Assembly: GCA_025360715.1 (NCBI GenBank)
Contig: JANYBS010000198.1
Coordinates: 1-52,846 of the forward strand
From: Candidatus Eiseniibacteriota bacterium
Lineage (GTDB): Bacteria; Eisenbacteria; RBG-16-71-46
Direction of reading: 5' to 3'
Length of the DNA stretch: 52,846 bases
Under the pieces are notes generated by a model. The model ran no database searches. It saw nothing but the letters and a program-made list of their open reading frames with translations, and was not told where the DNA came from. The position numbers and the translations under genes are program-made. Shown here piece after piece: positions 4,798-16,454 of this stretch (the first letter of the stretch is position 1; each line of letters opens with the position of its first letter).

Positions 4798-7700
4798 TCA
4801 GAGCGCCTCCTGCAGCGATGTCACATCGAGCGGCCCGCGCGTGAGCGCCTCCATACCGGAGACGGCAGCGACCGCGCCGGCGACCGTGGTGATGACCGGG
4901 ATCCCTAGCGCCACCGCGCGCTCACGGATCGCCTTCTCATCGTACTCCGTCTGCCGGCCGAGCGGCGTGTTGAGCACCAATTGGATCTCCCCATTCTCCA
5001 TGAGGTCCACGACGTGAGGACGGCCCTCGTGCACCTTGAAGACCTCGCGGCAGTCCACCCCGTTGCGGCGCAGGAAGCGGGCCGTGCCGCGGGTGGCCAC
5101 CAGTCCATACCCCAGTTCGACCAGTTTCATCGCCATGAAAGTGATCGCACGCTTGTCGTCGTCGCGAATACTCATGAAAACCGTGCCCGAGGCCGGAAGT
5201 GGCTCGCCCGAGCCCAGATGTGCCTTGGCGAGCGCGCGTCCAAAGTCCAGATCGCGACCCATGACCTCGCCAGTCGACTTCATCTCGGGGCCCAGCAACG
5301 CGTCCTCGCCTGGGAAGCGGCTGAACGGCAGCACCGGTTTCTTGATGCTCACCATGGTGATCTCGGGCTCGACCGGACGGATGTCACTGAGCCGCTCGCC
5401 CACCATGACGCGGGCGGCGAGCCGCGCCAGCGGCACGCCGACTGCCTTGCTCACGAACGGCACGGTGCGTGAGGCACGCGGATTGGCCTCGAGCACGAAC
5501 ACCTGGTCGTGCCGCACCGCGTACTGCACGTTCATGAGGCCCTTCACGCCAAGCGCGTGGGCCAGCACGGCGGTGATGCGCTTGACCTCGTTCACGGTGT
5601 GATCGCCCAGCGTGAAGGGCGGGATCACGCACGTGGAGTCGCCCGAGTGGATGCCGGCTTCCTCGATGTGCTCCATGACCGCGCCGAGCATGACGGTCTC
5701 GCCGTCGGCGATGGCGTCGACGTCGACCTCGAGCGCGCCCTCGAGGAACTTGTCGAGCAGCACGGGCTCCTCGCTCGAGATGAGCGCCTCGCGCAGCAGC
5801 CAGTCCTCGAGCTCATCGGGCGCGTAGACCACGCGCATGCCGCGGCCACCGAGCACGTACGAAGGCCGCACCAGCAACGGGAAGCCGAGCTCCGATGCAA
5901 ACGCCAGCGCCTCTTCGCGCGTGGCGGCGATGCGGCTCTCGGGCTGACGCAGGCCGAGCGATTCGACCAGCTCGCGGAAGCGCGAGCGGTTCTCGGCAAG
6001 GTCGAGGCCGTCATAAGAAGTGCCAAGCAAGGGCACACCGGCCTCGTGCAATGCCTTCGACAGCTTGAGCGGCGTCTGGCCGCCCAGCTGCACGATGACG
6101 CCGATGGGATTCTCGCAGTCGACGATGTTGAGCACGTCCTCGGCCGTGAGCGGCTCGAAGTAGAGCCGGCTCGACACGTCGTAGTCGGTGCTCACGGTCT
6201 CGGGATTCGAGTTCGCCATGAGCACCTCGAACCCGCGCGTCTTGAGTTCGAGCGCCGCCTGCACACAGCAGTAGTCGAACTCCAGACCCTGGCCGATGCG
6301 GTTGGGGCCGCTGCCCAGGATGAGCACGCGCGGCTTCTTGGGCTCGGGCGTCTCGGTCTCTTCTTCGTAGGTCGAATAGAAGTACGGCGTCTCCGCCGCG
6401 AACTCAGCGCCGCAGGTATCGACCGCCTTCATGACCGGGATGATGCCCGCCGCCTTGCGCTTGGCGCGCACCTGGGGCTCGGTCATCCCGAAGCGGAACG
6501 CCAGATGGCGATCGGAGAAGCCCAAGCGCTTGGCCCTGCGCACGCGGTCGTCGTCCCAGCCCGTATCCATGAGCAGTCTGTCGAACTCCGTGATCCGCGC
6601 CATCTGATGCAGGAACCACGGGTCGATGCCGGTGAGCGCGCTGAGGGAAGCCGGCGTCTCGCCAGCAGCGAGTGCGCGGAACAGGTCGCGCAAGCGGTCC
6701 GGGTGCGGCTCGCGCAGGCTCATCTGCAGCGTCTCGATCTGCTCGGGCGCCGCCGGCCCCGGCAGCAGGTCGCCGCCGGTCTCGAGCGCGCGCCAGCCTT
6801 TGAGCAGCGCCTCGGGGAACGTACGGCCGATCGCCATGACCTCGCCCACCGACTTCATCTTGGTGCCCAGCCGGCGGTCGGCGGCGCGAAACTTCTCGAA
6901 CGCCCACTTGGGGATCTTGACCACGCAGTAATCCAGCGACGGCTCGAAGCACGCGGGCGTCTTCTGGGTGATGTCGTTGGGGATCTCATCCAGCGTGAGC
7001 CCGGCTGCGAGCAGCGCCGAGATCTTGGCGATCGGAAAGCCCGTCGCCTTGGACGCCAGCGCCGAACTGCGCGAGACACGCGGGTTCATCTCGATGATGC
7101 GCATCTCGCCCGTGTCGGGGTGAACGCTGAACTGGATGTTGCAGCCGCCGGCCTCGATCTTGATCTCGCGGATGATCTTGATCGCCGCATCCCGCATGCG
7201 CTGGTAGCAGTGATCGCTCAGCGTCTGCGCGGGCGCCACCGTGATCGAGTCGCCCGTGTGCACGCCCATGGGATCGAAGTTCTCGATCGCGCAGACGATC
7301 ACCACGTTGTCCGCGCGGTCGCGCATGACCTCGAGCTCGAACTCCTTCCAGCCCAGCAGGCATTCTTCGATGAGGATGCTGCCGTTGGGGCTGGCGGCGA
7401 TGCCGATGCGCACGGCCTCGCGAAGGCTGCGGCGGTCCATCACCAGGCCCGAGCCCTGCCCGCCCAGCGTGAACGACGAGCGGATCACGAGCGGATAGCC
7501 CAGTTGTTCGCCCAACGCCACGGCGTCGGCGACGCTGGTGGCGTAGCCGCTCTTGGGCAGCAGCATGCCCGCATGCTCCATGGCCTTCTTGAAGAGGTCG
7601 CGGTCCTCGGCCTTCTCGATCGCTTCGAGCGAAGCGCCGATGAGTTTGACGCCATACTTGGCCAGCACGCCGCTCTTGGCGAGCGCCACGGCAAGATTGA

Positions 7701-7986
7701 GCGCCGTCTGGCCACCCAACGTAGGCAGCAGCGAATCCGGGCGCTCCTTGGCGATGATCGCCTCGGCGATCTCGGGCAGCAGCGGCTCGATGTACGTGTG
7801 ATCGGCGAACTCGGGATCCGTCATGATCGTGGCGGGGTTCGAGTTCAGCAGCACCACCTCGCAGCCGAGCGACTTGAGCGCGCGGCAACCCTGCGTGCCC
7901 GAGTAATCGAACTCGCACGCCTGCCCGATCACGATGGGGCCGGCGCCCAGGACCATGACCTTCTGGATGTCGGTGCGCTTGGGCAT
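4798..7986 (-). CDS. carB: Carbamoyl-phosphate synthase large subunit
   Basis: This 1062-residue synthetase makes carbamoyl phosphate from bicarbonate, ATP and ammonia supplied by CarA, feeding pyrimidine and arginine synthesis. Two homologous ATP-grasp halves are visible. The N-half starts [20 protein letters not shown] and contains FEYD-type motifs and [16 protein letters not shown]. The C-half begins at [20 protein letters not shown] and contains [18 protein letters not shown]-terminal MGS-like allosteric domain follows. The frame is open further upstream, but ATG 7986-7984 has GGAGGAG just before it and overlaps the carA stop by one base (TGATG). The length equals that of E. coli CarB within a few residues. 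Confidence 0.97.
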
Positions 7987-9149
7987 CAGTCCACTCCTCC
8001 CGCGAGCACGGGTTGCAGGCGCTTGCCGCTGCGGCGCGAGACCGCTTGGGCGAAGGCGCGGAACCACGGGCGCGAATCATGCGGGCCGGGCGCCGCTTCG
8101 GGGTGGTACTGGCAGCTGAACACGGGCAGCGTCTTGTGCACCATGCCTTCGAGCGTGCCGTCGTTGCCGCTGAAATGCGTGAGATCGAACTCGCCCATGG
8201 GCAATGTGTCCTCGACCACGTAGAAGCCGTGGTTCTGGCTCGTGATCTCGACCACTCCCGTGCGCCGGTCGATCACCGGATGGTTCGCGCCGCGATGACC
8301 GAACTTGAGCTTGCCGGTCTTCGCGCCGAACGCGAGGCCCAGAAGCTGGTGCCCCAGGCAGATGCCCAGCGTGGGCACCTGCTGCGCCACTTCGCGCGCC
8401 GCGGCGATGGCGAAATCGAGCGGCTCGGGGTCTCCCGGGCCGTTCGAGAGCAGCACGCCGTCGGGATTCATGGCCAGTACGTCGCGCGCGCTCGTGCGGG
8501 CCGGCACCACGCGCACGCGGAAGCCCTCGGCGCGCAGGCGGCGCAGGATGTTGAATTTGACGCCGAAGTCGAACGCCACGCACAGCGGCCGGCCTCGTTC
8601 GGCCGCGGGCTCGTGCTCCACAGCCCCGGCACCGGTCCACCAGTAGGGCTCCACGCACGTGACCACGTCGGCCAGCGCGAGGCCGACCATGCTCGGGCTC
8701 TTGCGCGCCTTCTCGACCAGCGCGTCGGCGTCGCTCGAGAGCGTGGACAGGCAGCCGCGCATGGTGCCCGCATCGCGCAGGTGGCGCACCAGTGCGCGCG
8801 TGTCGATGCCGCTGATGCCCGGCACGCCGTGCTCGGCGAGCAGGTCGTGCAGCGTGCCCGTGCTGCGCCAGTTGCTCGGCACCTCGCACAGGTCGCGCAC
8901 CACCATCCCCTGCGCGCGCAGCTTGTCGCTCTCCCAGTCCTGGTCGTTCACGCCGTAGTTGCCGATCAGCGGATACGTGAACGTGAGGATCTGGCCGCAG
9001 TATGACGGATCGCTCATCACCTCTTGATAGCCGGTCATGGCGGTGTTGAAGACGACTTCACCCGTCGTCTCGATCGCCGCGCCAAAGCCCTCGCCGCGGA
9101 ACACGCGGCCGTCTTCAAGCGCCAGCATGGCAACGGGGCGCCGGGTCAC
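7986..9149 (-). CDS. carA: Carbamoyl-phosphate synthase small subunit (glutaminase)
   Basis: This 387-residue glutamine amidotransferase hydrolyses glutamine and tunnels ammonia to CarB. The N-terminal CarA-specific domain is followed by a class I GATase domain with the nucleophile motif [14 protein letters not shown] and the downstream [10 protein letters not shown] His/Glu site. It starts with GTG at 9149-9147, with GGAG 7 bases upstream, and overlaps the pyrC stop by four bases (GTGA). The stop shares one base with the carB ATG. Its place inside the pyr operon suggests this CarAB copy serves pyrimidine synthesis first. Confidence 0.96.
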
Positions 9150-10462
9150 TGCGCCGCTCCGGTCGAAGACGCATCCGCGCGCTGCAGGCCAAAGCCATCA
9201 TCAAGGTGCGTGAAGCGCCCGGCGAGCATCGTCGCGAGGACGCGGCCATTGAGCGTCCAGCCGGCGAAAGGTGTGTTGCGGCCCTTGGTGTGAAAGGTGC
9301 TCGGATCCACGGTCCACTCCGCATCAGGGTCGAACAAGACAAGGTCTGCGCTCGAGCCGGGCTCGAGATCCACCTCGGGAAACTGGAAGACGCGCCGCGG
9401 CGCATCGGTCCACAACTCGATCGCGCGCGCGAGCGTGATGTGCCCGGGCTTGACGAGGAACGTGATGGTGAGCGCGAGCGCCGTCTCCAGGCCGACGATG
9501 CCGAAGGGCGCCTCGGCGAACGGGCGCTTCTTCTCTTCACTCGTGTGCGGCGCGTGGTCGGTGGCGAAGCTGTCGATCGTGCCATCCTGGATCGCCGCGA
9601 TGCAGGCGGCGCGGTCTTCTTCCGAGCGCAGCGGCGGGTTCATCTTGGCGTGCGTGTCGTAGTCGCCGACGGCTTCGTCGGTGAGCACCCAGTAATGCGG
9701 GCACGTCTCGCCGGTCACTGGCAGCCCGCGGCGCTTGGCGTCGCGCAGCGCGTCGAACGCCTGCGCGGTACTCAAGTGCGCCAGGTGCACGCGCGCGCCG
9801 GTGAGTTCGGCAAGGTCGGCATCGCGTCGGCACATCACGCTCTCGGCGGCGTTCGGGATGCCACGTAGTCCCAGCCGCGTCGCCGTGAAGCCCTCGTTCA
9901 TGACCCCGTCACCCTTCAGGTCTGGATCCTCTTCGTGGCAGACGATCGGCAGTCCGGTGCGGCGCGCGTATTCCAGTCCATGCCGCATCATCGCGGCGCT
10001 GCGCACCGGATGGCCGTCGTCGGAGAACGCCACCGCGCCCGCCTGCGCCATGGCCTGCAGCGGCGCCAGCTGCTCGCCCTTCTGGCCCATGGTCACCGCA
10101 GCGATCGGATGCACGCGGCAATGGCCGGCGCCCTCGGCGCGGCGCAGCACCCATTCGACCCAGGCCGGTGTGTCGATCACCGGCTCGGTGTTCGGCATGC
10201 AGGCGATGTCGGTGAAACCGCCTGCGGCTGCAGCCATGCTGCCGGTCTCGATGCTCTCCTTGTTCGTCTGGCCTGGCTCGCGCAGGTGCACGTGCAGGTC
10301 CACCAAGCCGGGCGCGAGCACCGCGGCCTTGCAGTCGAACACGCGCACGAACTCGCCCGCATGCTTGGGCGCCGGAACGATCACGCCGTCCTCGATCGCG
10401 AGCGAGATCACTTCGCCCGTGCGCCAGTGACGCGCGTTCTTGAAGACGATCAGTGAGCTCAC
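9146..10462 (-). CDS. pyrC: Dihydroorotase, class I
   Basis: This 438-residue zinc amidohydrolase cyclises carbamoyl aspartate to dihydroorotate. Metal-binding motifs are present: VDLHVHLREPG near residue 60, an HPIAAVT His in the middle, THAKMNPPLRS, and the catalytic Asp in FATDHAPH. The frame stays open well upstream, but the translation there is pyrB out of frame. The GTG at 10462-10460 begins VSSLIVFKNARH and overlaps the pyrB stop by four bases (GTGA). The length fits class I (about 430), not the E. coli-type class II enzyme (about 350). Confidence 0.95.
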   Translation of the reverse strand: MSSLIVFKNARHWRTGEVISLAIEDGVIVPAPKHAGEFVRVFDCKAAVLAPGLVDLHVHLREPGQTNKESIETGSMAAAAGGFTDIACMPNTEPVIDTPAWVEWVLRRAEGAGHCRVHPIAAVTMGQKGEQLAPLQAMAQAGAVAFSDDGHPVRSAAMMRHGLEYARRTGLPIVCHEEDPDLKGDGVMNEGFTATRLGLRGIPNAAESVMCRRDADLAELTGARVHLAHLSTAQAFDALRDAKRRGLPVTGETCPHYWVLTDEAVGDYDTHAKMNPPLRSEEDRAACIAAIQDGTIDSFATDHAPHTSEEKKRPFAEAPFGIVGLETALALTITFLVKPGHITLARAIELWTDAPRRVFQFPEVDLEPGSSADLVLFDPDAEWTVDPSTFHTKGRNTPFAGWTLNGRVLATMLAGRFTHLDDGFGLQRADASSTGAAQ

Positions 10463-11457
10463 GACGCCGCCTGCAACGCGTGCCAGCAGCGCTTGAGCAC
10501 GGCGCAGCGCACCGCGACGCCGTTGGCCACCTGCGCAAGGATCAGCGAGCGTGCGCTGTCGGCGACCTCGGGCTCCAGTTCGGTGCCGCGGTTGACCGGG
10601 CCCGGATGCAGCACCGGCGCTTCGGGCTTCATGAGCGCCACGCGCTTGCGATTCACGCCCCACACACGCGCGTACTCGGCGCCCGAGGGCAGCAGGCCCT
10701 TCTCCATGCGCTCACGCTGCAGGCGCAGCGCCATGACCGCGTCGGCGCCACTCATGGCGTCTTCGACCGAGTCGGCGACGCTACAACCGAGCGATTCCAC
10801 ATCGAGCGGCATCAGCGTACCCGGTCCGCAGACCGTGACCTCGGCGCCCAGCGTGGTGAGCCCGGCGATGGCCGAGCGCGCCACGCGCGAATGCGCGATG
10901 TCGCCGATGATCGCCAGTCGGCGGCCCTCGAAGCGCCCGCCCCAGGCGTCCTGGAGCGTCAGCAGGTCGAGAAGGCCCTGTGTGGGATGTTCGTGCATGC
11001 CGTCACCCGCATTGATGACGCCCGGGCGGGCAAGATGCCGCGCCAGGTGCGCAGCGGTGCCCGAGACAGCGTGGCGCACCACCAACAGGTGCGCGCCCAT
11101 CGCCTCGAACAGCCGCATGGTATCGAGCAGGGTCTCGCCCTTACTCAATGATGAGGCCGAAGCCGAGAACGCGACCGCGTTCGCGCCCAGACGGCGCGCC
11201 GCGATCTCGAAAGACACCCGCGTGCGCGTGGAGTCCTCGATGAAAGCCAACAGAACAGTGCATCCGGCAAGGTCGGTGCGGTCCGGCCCGCCTGCCCGCA
11301 GCCATTCGCGCTCGCGCGCGGCCGACTCGAGCAATTCCAGCAAGTGGTCCCGGGACATGCCCTCGATCGCCAACAGATGGCGGTCGTCAGTATTCCGGGT
11401 AGAAAAAATCCCGGCGCCGAGGGGCGTCGGGTTCTGCACGGCAGAGGCTGTCGGCAT
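10459..11457 (-). CDS. pyrB: Aspartate carbamoyltransferase catalytic subunit
   Basis: This 332-residue enzyme condenses carbamoyl phosphate with aspartate, the committed step of pyrimidine synthesis. The carbamoyl-phosphate site reads EDSTRTRVSFE at residues 74-84 (commonly EPSTRT; here Asp replaces Pro). HEHPTQGLLD and the aspartate-binding region ALRLQRERM, with HPGPVNRGTE near the end, are also present. No pyrI or pyrC-like inactive homologue lies beside it. It is the first gene of the operon. AAAGGAG sits 7 bases before the ATG and is part of a PyrR-type hairpin, so translation of this gene is probably the regulated step. Confidence 0.96.
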   Translation of the reverse strand: MPTASAVQNPTPLGAGIFSTRNTDDRHLLAIEGMSRDHLLELLESAAREREWLRAGGPDRTDLAGCTVLLAFIEDSTRTRVSFEIAARRLGANAVAFSASASSLSKGETLLDTMRLFEAMGAHLLVVRHAVSGTAAHLARHLARPGVINAGDGMHEHPTQGLLDLLTLQDAWGGRFEGRRLAIIGDIAHSRVARSAIAGLTTLGAEVTVCGPGTLMPLDVESLGCSVADSVEDAMSGADAVMALRLQRERMEKGLLPSGAEYARVWGVNRKRVALMKPEAPVLHPGPVNRGTELEPEVADSARSLILAQVANGVAVRCAVLKRCWHALQAAS

Positions 11458-11464
11458 GACCGAT

Positions 11465-11498
11465 CTCCTTTGGGAGCCTCTCGGGCGCCCTTAAAAGG
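11465..11498 (-). ncRNA. PyrR-binding translational control hairpin in the pyrB leader
   Basis: Read on the minus strand, CCUUU (11498-11494), a UAA bulge, GGG, a C/U mismatch and GCC close a CGAGA loop (11483-11479), followed by GGC, CCC and AAAGG (11471-11467). The loop and flanks match CCNGNGAGGYU, the core of PyrR-binding RNA known from Bacillus leaders. The 3' strand of the lower stem is the pyrB Shine-Dalgarno AAAGG, and no terminator follows, so PyrR binding would block ribosome access, as reported in mycobacteria. The fold was worked out by hand. Confidence 0.72.
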
Positions 11499-11526: not shown

Positions 11527-11555
11527 AACATAGTGGACTGGGCCGCGTTAATCAA
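11527..11555 (-). promoter_or_regulatory. Predicted pyr operon promoter
   Basis: On the minus strand a -35 TTGATT (11555-11550), a 17-base spacer and a -10 TATGTT (11532-11527) are spaced as for a housekeeping sigma factor. Transcription would start near 11520, leaving a leader of about 60 bases that contains the PyrR hairpin. Confidence 0.6.
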
Positions 11556-11588
11556 GCGTTTGCGTGACTTTGCGGCGCCGGCATGACA

Positions 11589-11594
11589 TAGAAT
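11589..11594 (+). promoter_or_regulatory. Possible -10 box of the secreted sorting-domain gene
   Basis: TAGAAT ends 8 bases before the ATG at 11603, so the transcript would be leaderless or nearly so. No convincing -35 is seen; TGACTT lies 18 bases upstream. Confidence 0.35.
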
Positions 11595-11602
11595 TAAGGG
11601 GC

Positions 11603-12745
11603 ATGCGCCTTCCCCCCTTGGTCCTGCTCCTTGCGGCGCTCCTTCCGGCCCCCGTGTCCGCCGACCCGTTGGTCGACGTACTCTCGCGTACCGTCTCCAC
11701 CAGCCGTTTCGCGATCCAGTTCGACTACTCGCACCAGGACGAGATCCGTAGCCTGGTGTTCAAGGACTGGAGCAGCAGCAAAAGCGTCAGTGCGTACGAA
11801 GGCGTGAGCAACGAGTTCTGGGGACAGAGCCTGCGCAGCCTCGACTCGACCGGCTTCATCTTGCCGCCGGATCAGGATGCGAGCGACATGGGCATCACGG
11901 GAGCCGCGCCCGGGCAAGTAGACCTCACGATCGAGCAGAGCACCATCGACCAGCCGTGGACGAGCACGTCGTACCGCTTCTTCGACGGCCAGCCGTTCTT
12001 CATGGTCACGCGCAGCGTCGGCTTCGCGGACGTGCCGGACAGCAGCAGCTACCAGATGTACCTGCCACGCATCCCGTTCACGGAGTCGTACCGCGCAGTG
12101 CGCTACCGCAACCTGGCAGGGCAACTGCAACAGCGCGTGTACTCGTTCCAAGGCGTGCTCACCGGCGACTGGGATGGCCGCTGGTTGCAGCAGGTGGAGA
12201 TCAGCGGCAACAAGCAGTACGCCGTGACCGTGATCTACGACAGCAGCACCGTGCGCACGCGGCAGTTCGTGCGCGGCTACGGCCCGAACAGCTTCACCGG
12301 CTGGGCCGCCGCGTGGGTGCCACCCGCCATGCACGAGATCAACGAGAGCCAGCGCGTGCTGCTACACTTCTCGACCAACGTGACGAACTTGAGCGTGATC
12401 GATTCGCTGTGGCGAGTGCTGAACTCGACGTACTCGGTCGCCGCCGCGCCGCCGGTGCGATTGCCGCAGGGCGGCCTGCGTCTGGCCGCGGCGCCCAACC
12501 CGGCGCGCGGCGAGACGCGACTGGCGTGGAGCCTGCCGCGCGCGGGCGCCGCCGAGCTGGCGATCTACGACGTGACCGGCCGCCGCGTGGCGCTGCTGCA
12601 CCGCGGCGATGCCGCAGCCGGCGAGCACGCGAGCACATGGAGTGGGCGCGATGACGCGGACCGGCTGCTGCCGCCCGGCGTCTACCTGGCAAGGCTCGCG
12701 ACGGCGCAGAGCGCGCGGAGCGTGAGGCTGGTGCGCGTGCGGTAG
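11603..12745 (+). CDS. Secreted protein with C-terminal FlgD/T9SS-type sorting domain
   Basis: This 380-residue exported protein has an N-terminal signal peptide (MRLPPLVLLLAALLPAPVSA). The central part, about 270 residues, is not recognised; it is rich in Ser, Tyr and aromatic residues, as in a beta-rich surface protein. The last 80 or so residues form an Ig-like domain of the FlgD/Por-secretion type (AAPNPARGETRLAWSLP, then YDVTGRRVALL and LPPGVYLARL). Such C-termini guide secretion or surface attachment in FCB-group bacteria. The frame is open from a GTG at 11564, but the ATG at 11603 begins the signal peptide directly. It is divergent from pyrB and shares its upstream region. Function unknown. 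Confidence 0.85.
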   Translation: MRLPPLVLLLAALLPAPVSADPLVDVLSRTVSTSRFAIQFDYSHQDEIRSLVFKDWSSSKSVSAYEGVSNEFWGQSLRSLDSTGFILPPDQDASDMGITGAAPGQVDLTIEQSTIDQPWTSTSYRFFDGQPFFMVTRSVGFADVPDSSSYQMYLPRIPFTESYRAVRYRNLAGQLQQRVYSFQGVLTGDWDGRWLQQVEISGNKQYAVTVIYDSSTVRTRQFVRGYGPNSFTGWAAAWVPPAMHEINESQRVLLHFSTNVTNLSVIDSLWRVLNSTYSVAAAPPVRLPQGGLRLAAAPNPARGETRLAWSLPRAGAAELAIYDVTGRRVALLHRGDAAAGEHASTWSGRDDADRLLPPGVYLARLATAQSARSVRLVRVR

Positions 12746-15905: not shown

Positions 15906-16454
15906 TCAGTCCTCGATCTCCTTGATCACGACGGAGTCGACGCTGTCGATCTCGACGAGCTTCACGCCGATGACCTCTTTCTTCGAGGTCGGGACGTTCT
16001 TGCCCACGTAGTCGGCGCGGATCGGCAGTTCGCGGTGGCCGCGGTCGATCACGACCGCCAGCTGGATGCTCTTGGGACGGCCGTAGTCGATGAGTGCGTC
16101 CATGGCGGCGCGCACGGTGCGGCCGGTGAAGAGCACATCGTCGATGAGCACCGCCACCTTGCCGTTGATGTCGACCGGGATCTCGGTGGCGCCCACGACC
16201 GGGTGCGCGGACACGGTCGAGAGGTCATCGCGATAGAGCGTGATGTCGAGGCTGCCCTCGGCGGGCATATGACCCTCGAATTCCTTGATCTTCTCGGCGA
16301 TCCGGTGGGCGATCGGGACGCCGCGGCGGCGGATGCCGACCAAGACGATCTCGTCGACGCCTTTGTTGCGCTCCACGATCTCGTGGGCGATGCGGGTGAT
16401 GATACGCCGCAGACCGTCGGCATCGACGATCTCGGCCTTCTCACGAAGCGCCAT
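15906..16454 (-). CDS. pyrR: Pyrimidine operon regulator PyrR / uracil phosphoribosyltransferase
   Basis: This 182-residue type I PRTase-fold protein binds pyr mRNA when UMP is high, and often has uracil phosphoribosyltransferase activity. The PRPP loop [12 protein letters not shown] is at residues 102-113, and the N-terminal [16 protein letters not shown] and [17 protein letters not shown] segments are typical of PyrR. GGAGG lies 6 bases before the ATG, inside a hairpin that resembles the pyrB leader element, so PyrR may repress its own synthesis. It is a single-gene unit with its own promoter and terminator, about 4.4 kb upstream of the pyr operon. An insertion sequence ends about 24 bases before its -35 box. 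Confidence 0.95.

Follow-up and report, generated by a model that had tools for sequence, protein, structure and literature searches.

In mycobacteria, PyrR acts at the level of translation, through a PyrR hairpin positioned over the Shine-Dalgarno sequence. In Escherichia coli, the pyrBI operon has a separate leader peptide but no PyrR, and UTP is sensed through pausing of the polymerase. For the pyrR-pyrB region of Thermus ZO5, Van de Casteele et al. reportedly proposed in 1997 that a translating ribosome, not an RNA antiterminator, prevents the terminator. Bacillus PyrR attenuators (Rfam RF00515), as given by Lu et al. 1996 (cited via PMC4347634), combine the loop core CCNGNGAGG and a CCUUUAA lower stem with an intrinsic terminator downstream. 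A system with a different ligand, the SAM-II riboswitch of Sinorhizobium (S. meliloti) metA, has its intrinsic terminator after AUG1 and ahead of the remainder of the gene (PMC9373788).

The window analyzed here is a stretch of 52,846 nt from Candidatus Eiseniibacteriota bacterium (assembly GCA_025360715.1, contig JANYBS010000198.1); its source is a 4.3-Mb genome of Candidatus Eisenbacteria. A pyrimidine operon, its leader, and a pyrR gene apart from the operon lie on the minus strand as follows:

4798-7986, minus strand: carB, carbamoyl-phosphate synthase large subunit, overlaps carA
7986-9149, minus strand: carA, carbamoyl-phosphate synthase small subunit, overlaps pyrC
9146-10462, minus strand: pyrC, dihydroorotase, overlaps pyrB
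10459-11457, minus strand: pyrB, aspartate carbamoyltransferase (ATCase), 332 aa (Pfam and NCBIfam)
11402-11431, minus strand: predicted intrinsic terminator in pyrB, CCCGACGCCCCUCGGCGCCGGG plus AUUUUUUC, codons 9-19 (fold, Rfam alignment, relatives, codon bias)
11465-11471, minus strand: Shine-Dalgarno sequence AAAGGAG, the AAAGG part of which forms the 3' side of the lower stem (sequence and fold)
11467-11498, minus strand: PyrR-type hairpin with lower stem CCUUU/AAAGG, UAA bulge, upper stem, and CGAGA loop (fold, core, Rfam, covariation)
11527-11555, minus strand: sigma-70-like promoter of the pyrB operon, TTGATT-17-TATGTT (sequence; similar promoters in relatives)
15906-16454, minus strand: pyrR, presumed regulator (NCBIfam and PDB matches)

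The start codon of pyrB is the ATG at 11457. The operon genes overlap, as stated in the preliminary description of this locus; the junctions read GTGA at pyrB/pyrC and pyrC/carA and TGATG at carA/carB. Divergent from pyrB, and with the promoter region in common, is a gene for a probably secreted FlgD-Ig-domain protein (11564-12745, plus strand); genes for MgtE, EamA, and Lrp/AsnC proteins lie between pyrB and pyrR. One genome of the window's genus carries a pyrB-type leader and start codon directly before carA (L164/L205, G004:C776), and pyrB and pyrC were not found there, an arrangement that reflects either a deletion or an assembly fault.

The PyrR-type hairpin over the pyrB Shine-Dalgarno sequence

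The minus-strand sequence CCUUUUAAGGGCGCCCGAGAGGCUCCCAAAGGAG (11465-11498) has a folding energy of -13.2 kcal/mol and adopts the structure described previously, with CCUUU paired to AAAGG, a UAA bulge, and a CGAGA loop. Its loop core, CCCGAGAGGCT (that is, CCCGAGAGGCU; 11475-11485), fits the CCNGNGAGGYU pattern. The Shine-Dalgarno sequence lies only partly within the lower stem, and the minimum-energy fold of a longer pyrB leader lacks this stem. Considered as a single sequence, the hairpin is within chance: the core pattern occurs twice in the window (1.08 matches expected), and nine similar cores with stems are present, compared with 6.2 in shuffles. It is significant only through its conservation in 18 genomes. 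Upstream of the leader, the promoter that had been proposed earlier is borne out by a promoter-like sequence (11555-11527; score, 8/12). The pyrB promoters of relatives are of the same kind, with spacers of 17 to 18 nt and at 21 to 36 nt upstream of the hairpin, and most have the same spacing.

The preliminary description had suggested a search with the Rfam PyrR-binding model. RF00515 aligned with the pyrB leader end to end over its full 115 positions, the terminator part falling inside pyrB, at 32.5 bits (E = 0.0055 for 261 bases searched). Because this score is under the gathering threshold of 54, the leader is not an RF00515 member by Rfam's own criterion. Leaders of seven relatives with a match at E ≤ 1 scored 35 to 46 bits, all likewise under the threshold; the curated Rfam cutoff thus misses the pyrB leaders tested here.

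Comparison among relatives was more informative. In all 18 distinct pyrB leaders of the family, the hairpin is placed directly over the Shine-Dalgarno sequence, and Shine-Dalgarno matches are also listed for the relatives' pyrB genes. Loop core and stem covariation, which the preliminary description would have looked for in related leaders, are both seen in the family. In a 17-row leader alignment, 91.4% of the cells are paired, with 14 double changes, and the covariation score is 0.368, compared with 0.207 in shuffles (0/500 as high). When the pairing partners are slid along the same alignment, pairing falls to 61% or less. A covariance model placed the pyrB leader as the top genome-wide site in 18/18 genomes with this pyrB. 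When the model was built without the window's genus, the pyrB site of the window still ranked first in the 4.3-Mb genome (E = 0.028), followed by a site at purC (E = 0.11). The loops of relatives keep CNGNGAG/GNGAG, with changes falling at the N positions; in these sequences, the variable positions of the recognition loop are all ones that also differ among known PyrR sites. A chance site, or contamination of one metagenome-assembled genome (MAG), is ruled out by the 18 genomes.

The presumed regulator is encoded in the same genome. The window's pyrR product scores 251.6 bits against the NCBIfam PyrR equivalog (cutoff, 138) and matches PyrR structures in the PDB at E = 4e-67. PyrR is encoded in 20 of the 21 genomes of the window's order, the one genome without it being 65% complete. 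The pyrB leader hairpin is thus very likely to be PyrR responsive, as judged from sequence comparison. PyrR as the ligand, together with occlusion of the pyrB Shine-Dalgarno sequence, is strongly supported by the covariation, the pattern of loop variation, the presence of PyrR in these genomes, and the occurrence of the same element before pyrR in many other bacteria.

A predicted intrinsic terminator in the pyrB reading frame

According to the preliminary description, the leader had no terminator. This claim is contradicted by the full-length match to the Rfam PyrR model, the terminator part of which falls in pyrB: a GC-rich hairpin is followed by TTTTTT at codons 17 and 18, with the U-tract about 49 nt past the ATG. 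A generic promoter and terminator scan of the window listed neither the pyrB promoter nor the intragenic terminator, apparently because of a mismatch in the stem and the 8/12 promoter score.

A hairpin with a T-rich tract is present in the N-terminal extension of 17/18 leaders of the family, compared with 6/396 other pyrB windows. In 17 leaders, the U-tract starts at codons 16 to 18; in the remaining leader, it starts at codon 21. Its codons depart strongly from the usage of the gene: the ratio of TTT to TTC for Phe is 17:1 in the U-tract and 5:108 in the rest of the same pyrB genes, and T occupies the third position in 41/54 U-tract codons versus 237/4680 elsewhere in pyrB. The observed terminators are also stronger than those in synonymous-codon shuffles (Fisher combined p, 5e-12, or 1e-8 with one leader per genus; these values ignore kinship). 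Conservation is incomplete: one leader has lost the U-tract and kept the PyrR hairpin (L016), and three have weak U-tracts (L002, L005, and L013). The terminator hairpin varies little among the closest relatives; thus, its own covariation is limited.

Three observations place the terminator inside the translated gene. Residues 1 to 25 of PyrB form a family-specific N-terminal extension, and residue 26 is the first to be covered by the Pfam and NCBIfam ATCase models. Homologues of pyrB at the class level lack the extension. Finally, in 6/18 leaders the first 50 codons hold no second in-frame start, and in the remaining leaders such starts are at differing places. Translation of pyrB from a start beyond the terminator, the arrangement of S. 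meliloti metA, was therefore rejected as a conserved feature. The metA riboswitch resembles the pyrB leader in that an RNA switch sequesters the Shine-Dalgarno sequence and an intrinsic terminator follows; however, metA is translated from AUG2 past the terminator and its ligand is SAM, whereas pyrB has no conserved second start and its ligand would be a protein.

The extension might also have been selected as protein (peptide APAPxGAGxFS), with the hairpin and T-run as by-products in a GC-rich genome. The similarity of the peptide in many members would agree with this, and some synonymous shuffles likewise yield terminator-like structures. We nevertheless regard it as highly improbable, given the preference for TTT over TTC, the combined p value with one leader per genus, and the position of the extension outside the ATCase models. 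In addition, hairpin and T-run are retained despite a differing peptide in L009, L012, and L015, and in the last two the T-run stands behind a different hairpin. Selection on the intragenic terminator is likely, and the N-terminal extension of this ATCase may mainly represent the coding of that terminator.

Probable attenuation coupled to translation

We read the pyrB leader as probable ribosome-dependent PyrR attenuation with the terminator in the coding sequence of the enzyme itself. When UMP is plentiful, PyrR would clamp the hairpin and hide the Shine-Dalgarno sequence, so that pyrB is not initiated; the untranslated nascent RNA would then fold the terminator at codons 9 to 19, and transcription would halt before pyrBC-carAB. 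Under UMP shortage, a ribosome would initiate, cover codons 9 to 19, and keep the terminator from forming, and the operon would be transcribed and translated. The overlapping genes would add translational coupling. Control of the whole operon, as claimed in the preliminary description, is plausible both via these overlaps and via termination upstream of all.

The closest counterpart is Thermus ZO5, where a PyrR element likewise is said to control translation of an open reading frame (ORF), with the ribosome as antiterminator. In both cases, a PyrR hairpin lies over the Shine-Dalgarno sequence of a terminator-containing ORF. In Thermus, this is a separate leader peptide before pyrR, whereas in the Eisenbacteria family it is pyrB itself, the terminator lies in the coding sequence of the enzyme, and pyrR is located elsewhere. 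No separate short leader ORF precedes the first gene in the family; the ORF runs into pyrB without a stop. Because pyrB takes the place of the leader peptide, we consider the locus a variant rather than a plain member of the Thermus type. The E. coli pyrBI operon is similar in that pyrimidine control operates via a ribosome covering a terminator before the ATCase genes, and unlike the pyrB leader in its sensing of UTP by polymerase pausing, its separate leader peptide, and its lack of PyrR.

Translational repression by itself would have PyrR hide the Shine-Dalgarno sequence and the downstream genes fall by coupling, leaving the hairpin at codons 9 to 19 incidental or concerned with mRNA stability. 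The overlap of hairpin and Shine-Dalgarno sequence in all leaders, the overlapping operon genes, and L016, with its hairpin but no U-tract, are compatible with such a mechanism, and a purC hairpin without a terminator (see below) suggests that translational control alone is usable. We consider it unlikely, since the terminator is conserved, with constant spacing, in nearly all relatives, its U-tract codons are far from the usage of the gene, and other bacteria show the same order of PyrR hairpin, leader, and terminator. The mycobacterial type has a similar Shine-Dalgarno hairpin; however, occlusion there occurs without a terminator, whereas the pyrB leader adds a conserved one within the coding sequence in 17/18 cases. 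Thus, of the earlier proposal that PyrR blocks pyrB translation, the ligand and the occlusion are upheld by the covariation, the loop, and the presence of PyrR, while the purely translational mechanism is not. The conserved intrinsic terminator in the first 18 pyrB codons instead favors transcription attenuation coupled to translation.

Similarities to Bacillus attenuators include the loop core CCNGNGAGG, the CCUUUAA lower stem, and the downstream terminator. Bacillus-type attenuation, in which without PyrR an RNA antiterminator pairs the hairpin sequence with the 5' arm of the terminator and no ribosome is needed, would also fit the alignment of the terminator-containing Rfam PyrR model over all 115 positions. 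In a sister family, f5 (L018, L019, L021, L025, L027, L029, and L030), a possible pairing between AAAGGGG in the hairpin and CCCCUUU in the terminator that precedes pyrR looks like a classical Bacillus antiterminator. In the window's family, however, no conserved antiterminator pairing was found, as the own terminator arm pairs no better than arms swapped from other species or shuffled. The pyrB leader further differs from Bacillus attenuators in that the Shine-Dalgarno sequence lies within the hairpin, the terminator is in a translated frame, and the Rfam score is under the gathering threshold. Such a mechanism is therefore improbable for the family. Because no leader-specific antiterminator pairing was found, the ribosome would be the natural antiterminator in the coupled attenuation that we favor.

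The step from blocked translation to termination is one that we infer, and data from E. coli advise caution. For a terminator 30 bp past the start codon, translation cuts termination efficiency by only about 10% (PMC4824070). The authors consider it unlikely that the ribosome reaches RNA polymerase within the first 100 bp without the aid of a pause such as that at pyrBI (PMC4824070). With the U-tract about 49 nt past the pyrB ATG, these kinetics would call for a pause that is not evident in the sequence or for an effect that is only partial.

PyrR-type leaders in other bacteria and a second candidate site at purC

Other Eisenbacterial families also have this hairpin, there located ahead of pyrR in a pyrR-pyrB operon and followed by a short leader ORF in which the terminator lies. 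The simplest history would be that, in the window's family, such a leader ORF was joined to the pyrB frame. A survey of 385 genomes retrieved the order hairpin, leader ORF with terminator, and pyrR from many other bacteria; it favors ATG-bearing sites and gives no frequency because the model includes the ATG. At 25 of 28 Eisenbacterial and other sites, the leader frame stays open across the U-tract; for the two remaining frames, this holds at 8 and 18 of the sites. A PyrR hairpin over the Shine-Dalgarno sequence of a terminator-bearing leader ORF is thus apparently a widespread, Thermus-like class, found in many bacterial families (L176, L177, L178, L180, L184, and L208-L241), and ribosome-dependent PyrR attenuation, as proposed for Thermus, becomes testable as a broad mode of control. 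At five sites (L022, L225, L230, L231, and L237), the PyrR hairpin is directly before pyrR without a terminator, where direct translational autoregulation of pyrR is likely.

The purC site of the window's genome (G000:C241:16538-16579; L170 and L204) is a second PyrR-type hairpin that covers a Shine-Dalgarno sequence, and it resembles the mycobacterial type. The gene order there is purN, a HAD hydrolase gene, purC, and purH. The purC hairpin is found in ten family genomes (also L186-L189, L191-L194, and L196); the other family members lack it, most having little or no such leader before purC. Its stem shows four double changes (7/500 shuffles had covariation as high), and the N positions of its loop vary as in PyrR sites. 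In the PyrB tree, eight of the carriers form one clade (support, 91/99), and the other two are unplaced. No T-run was found behind the purC hairpin; thus, control of purC would be translational only.

The hairpin at purC points to pyrimidine-to-purine cross-control through PyrR. From a limited literature search, we know of no report of PyrR acting on a purine gene. The combined scenario stands at roughly even odds in our estimation: the leader peptide would have become part of the ATCase, the extension of which encodes the terminator of its own attenuator, and PyrR would have taken over purC in part of the family, making one pyrimidine sensor serve both nucleotide pathways. If this is correct, the regulated structural gene is itself the source of the translated frame and of the terminator, and the N terminus of an enzyme is dictated by the needs of RNA.

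Other ORFs can also follow such hairpins. In L214 and L218, a PyrR-type hairpin lies over the Shine-Dalgarno sequence of an ORF that, by eye, resembles a class II aminoacyl-tRNA synthetase or asparagine synthetase, and in L214, carA sequence continues in the same reading frame as this synthetase-like ORF.
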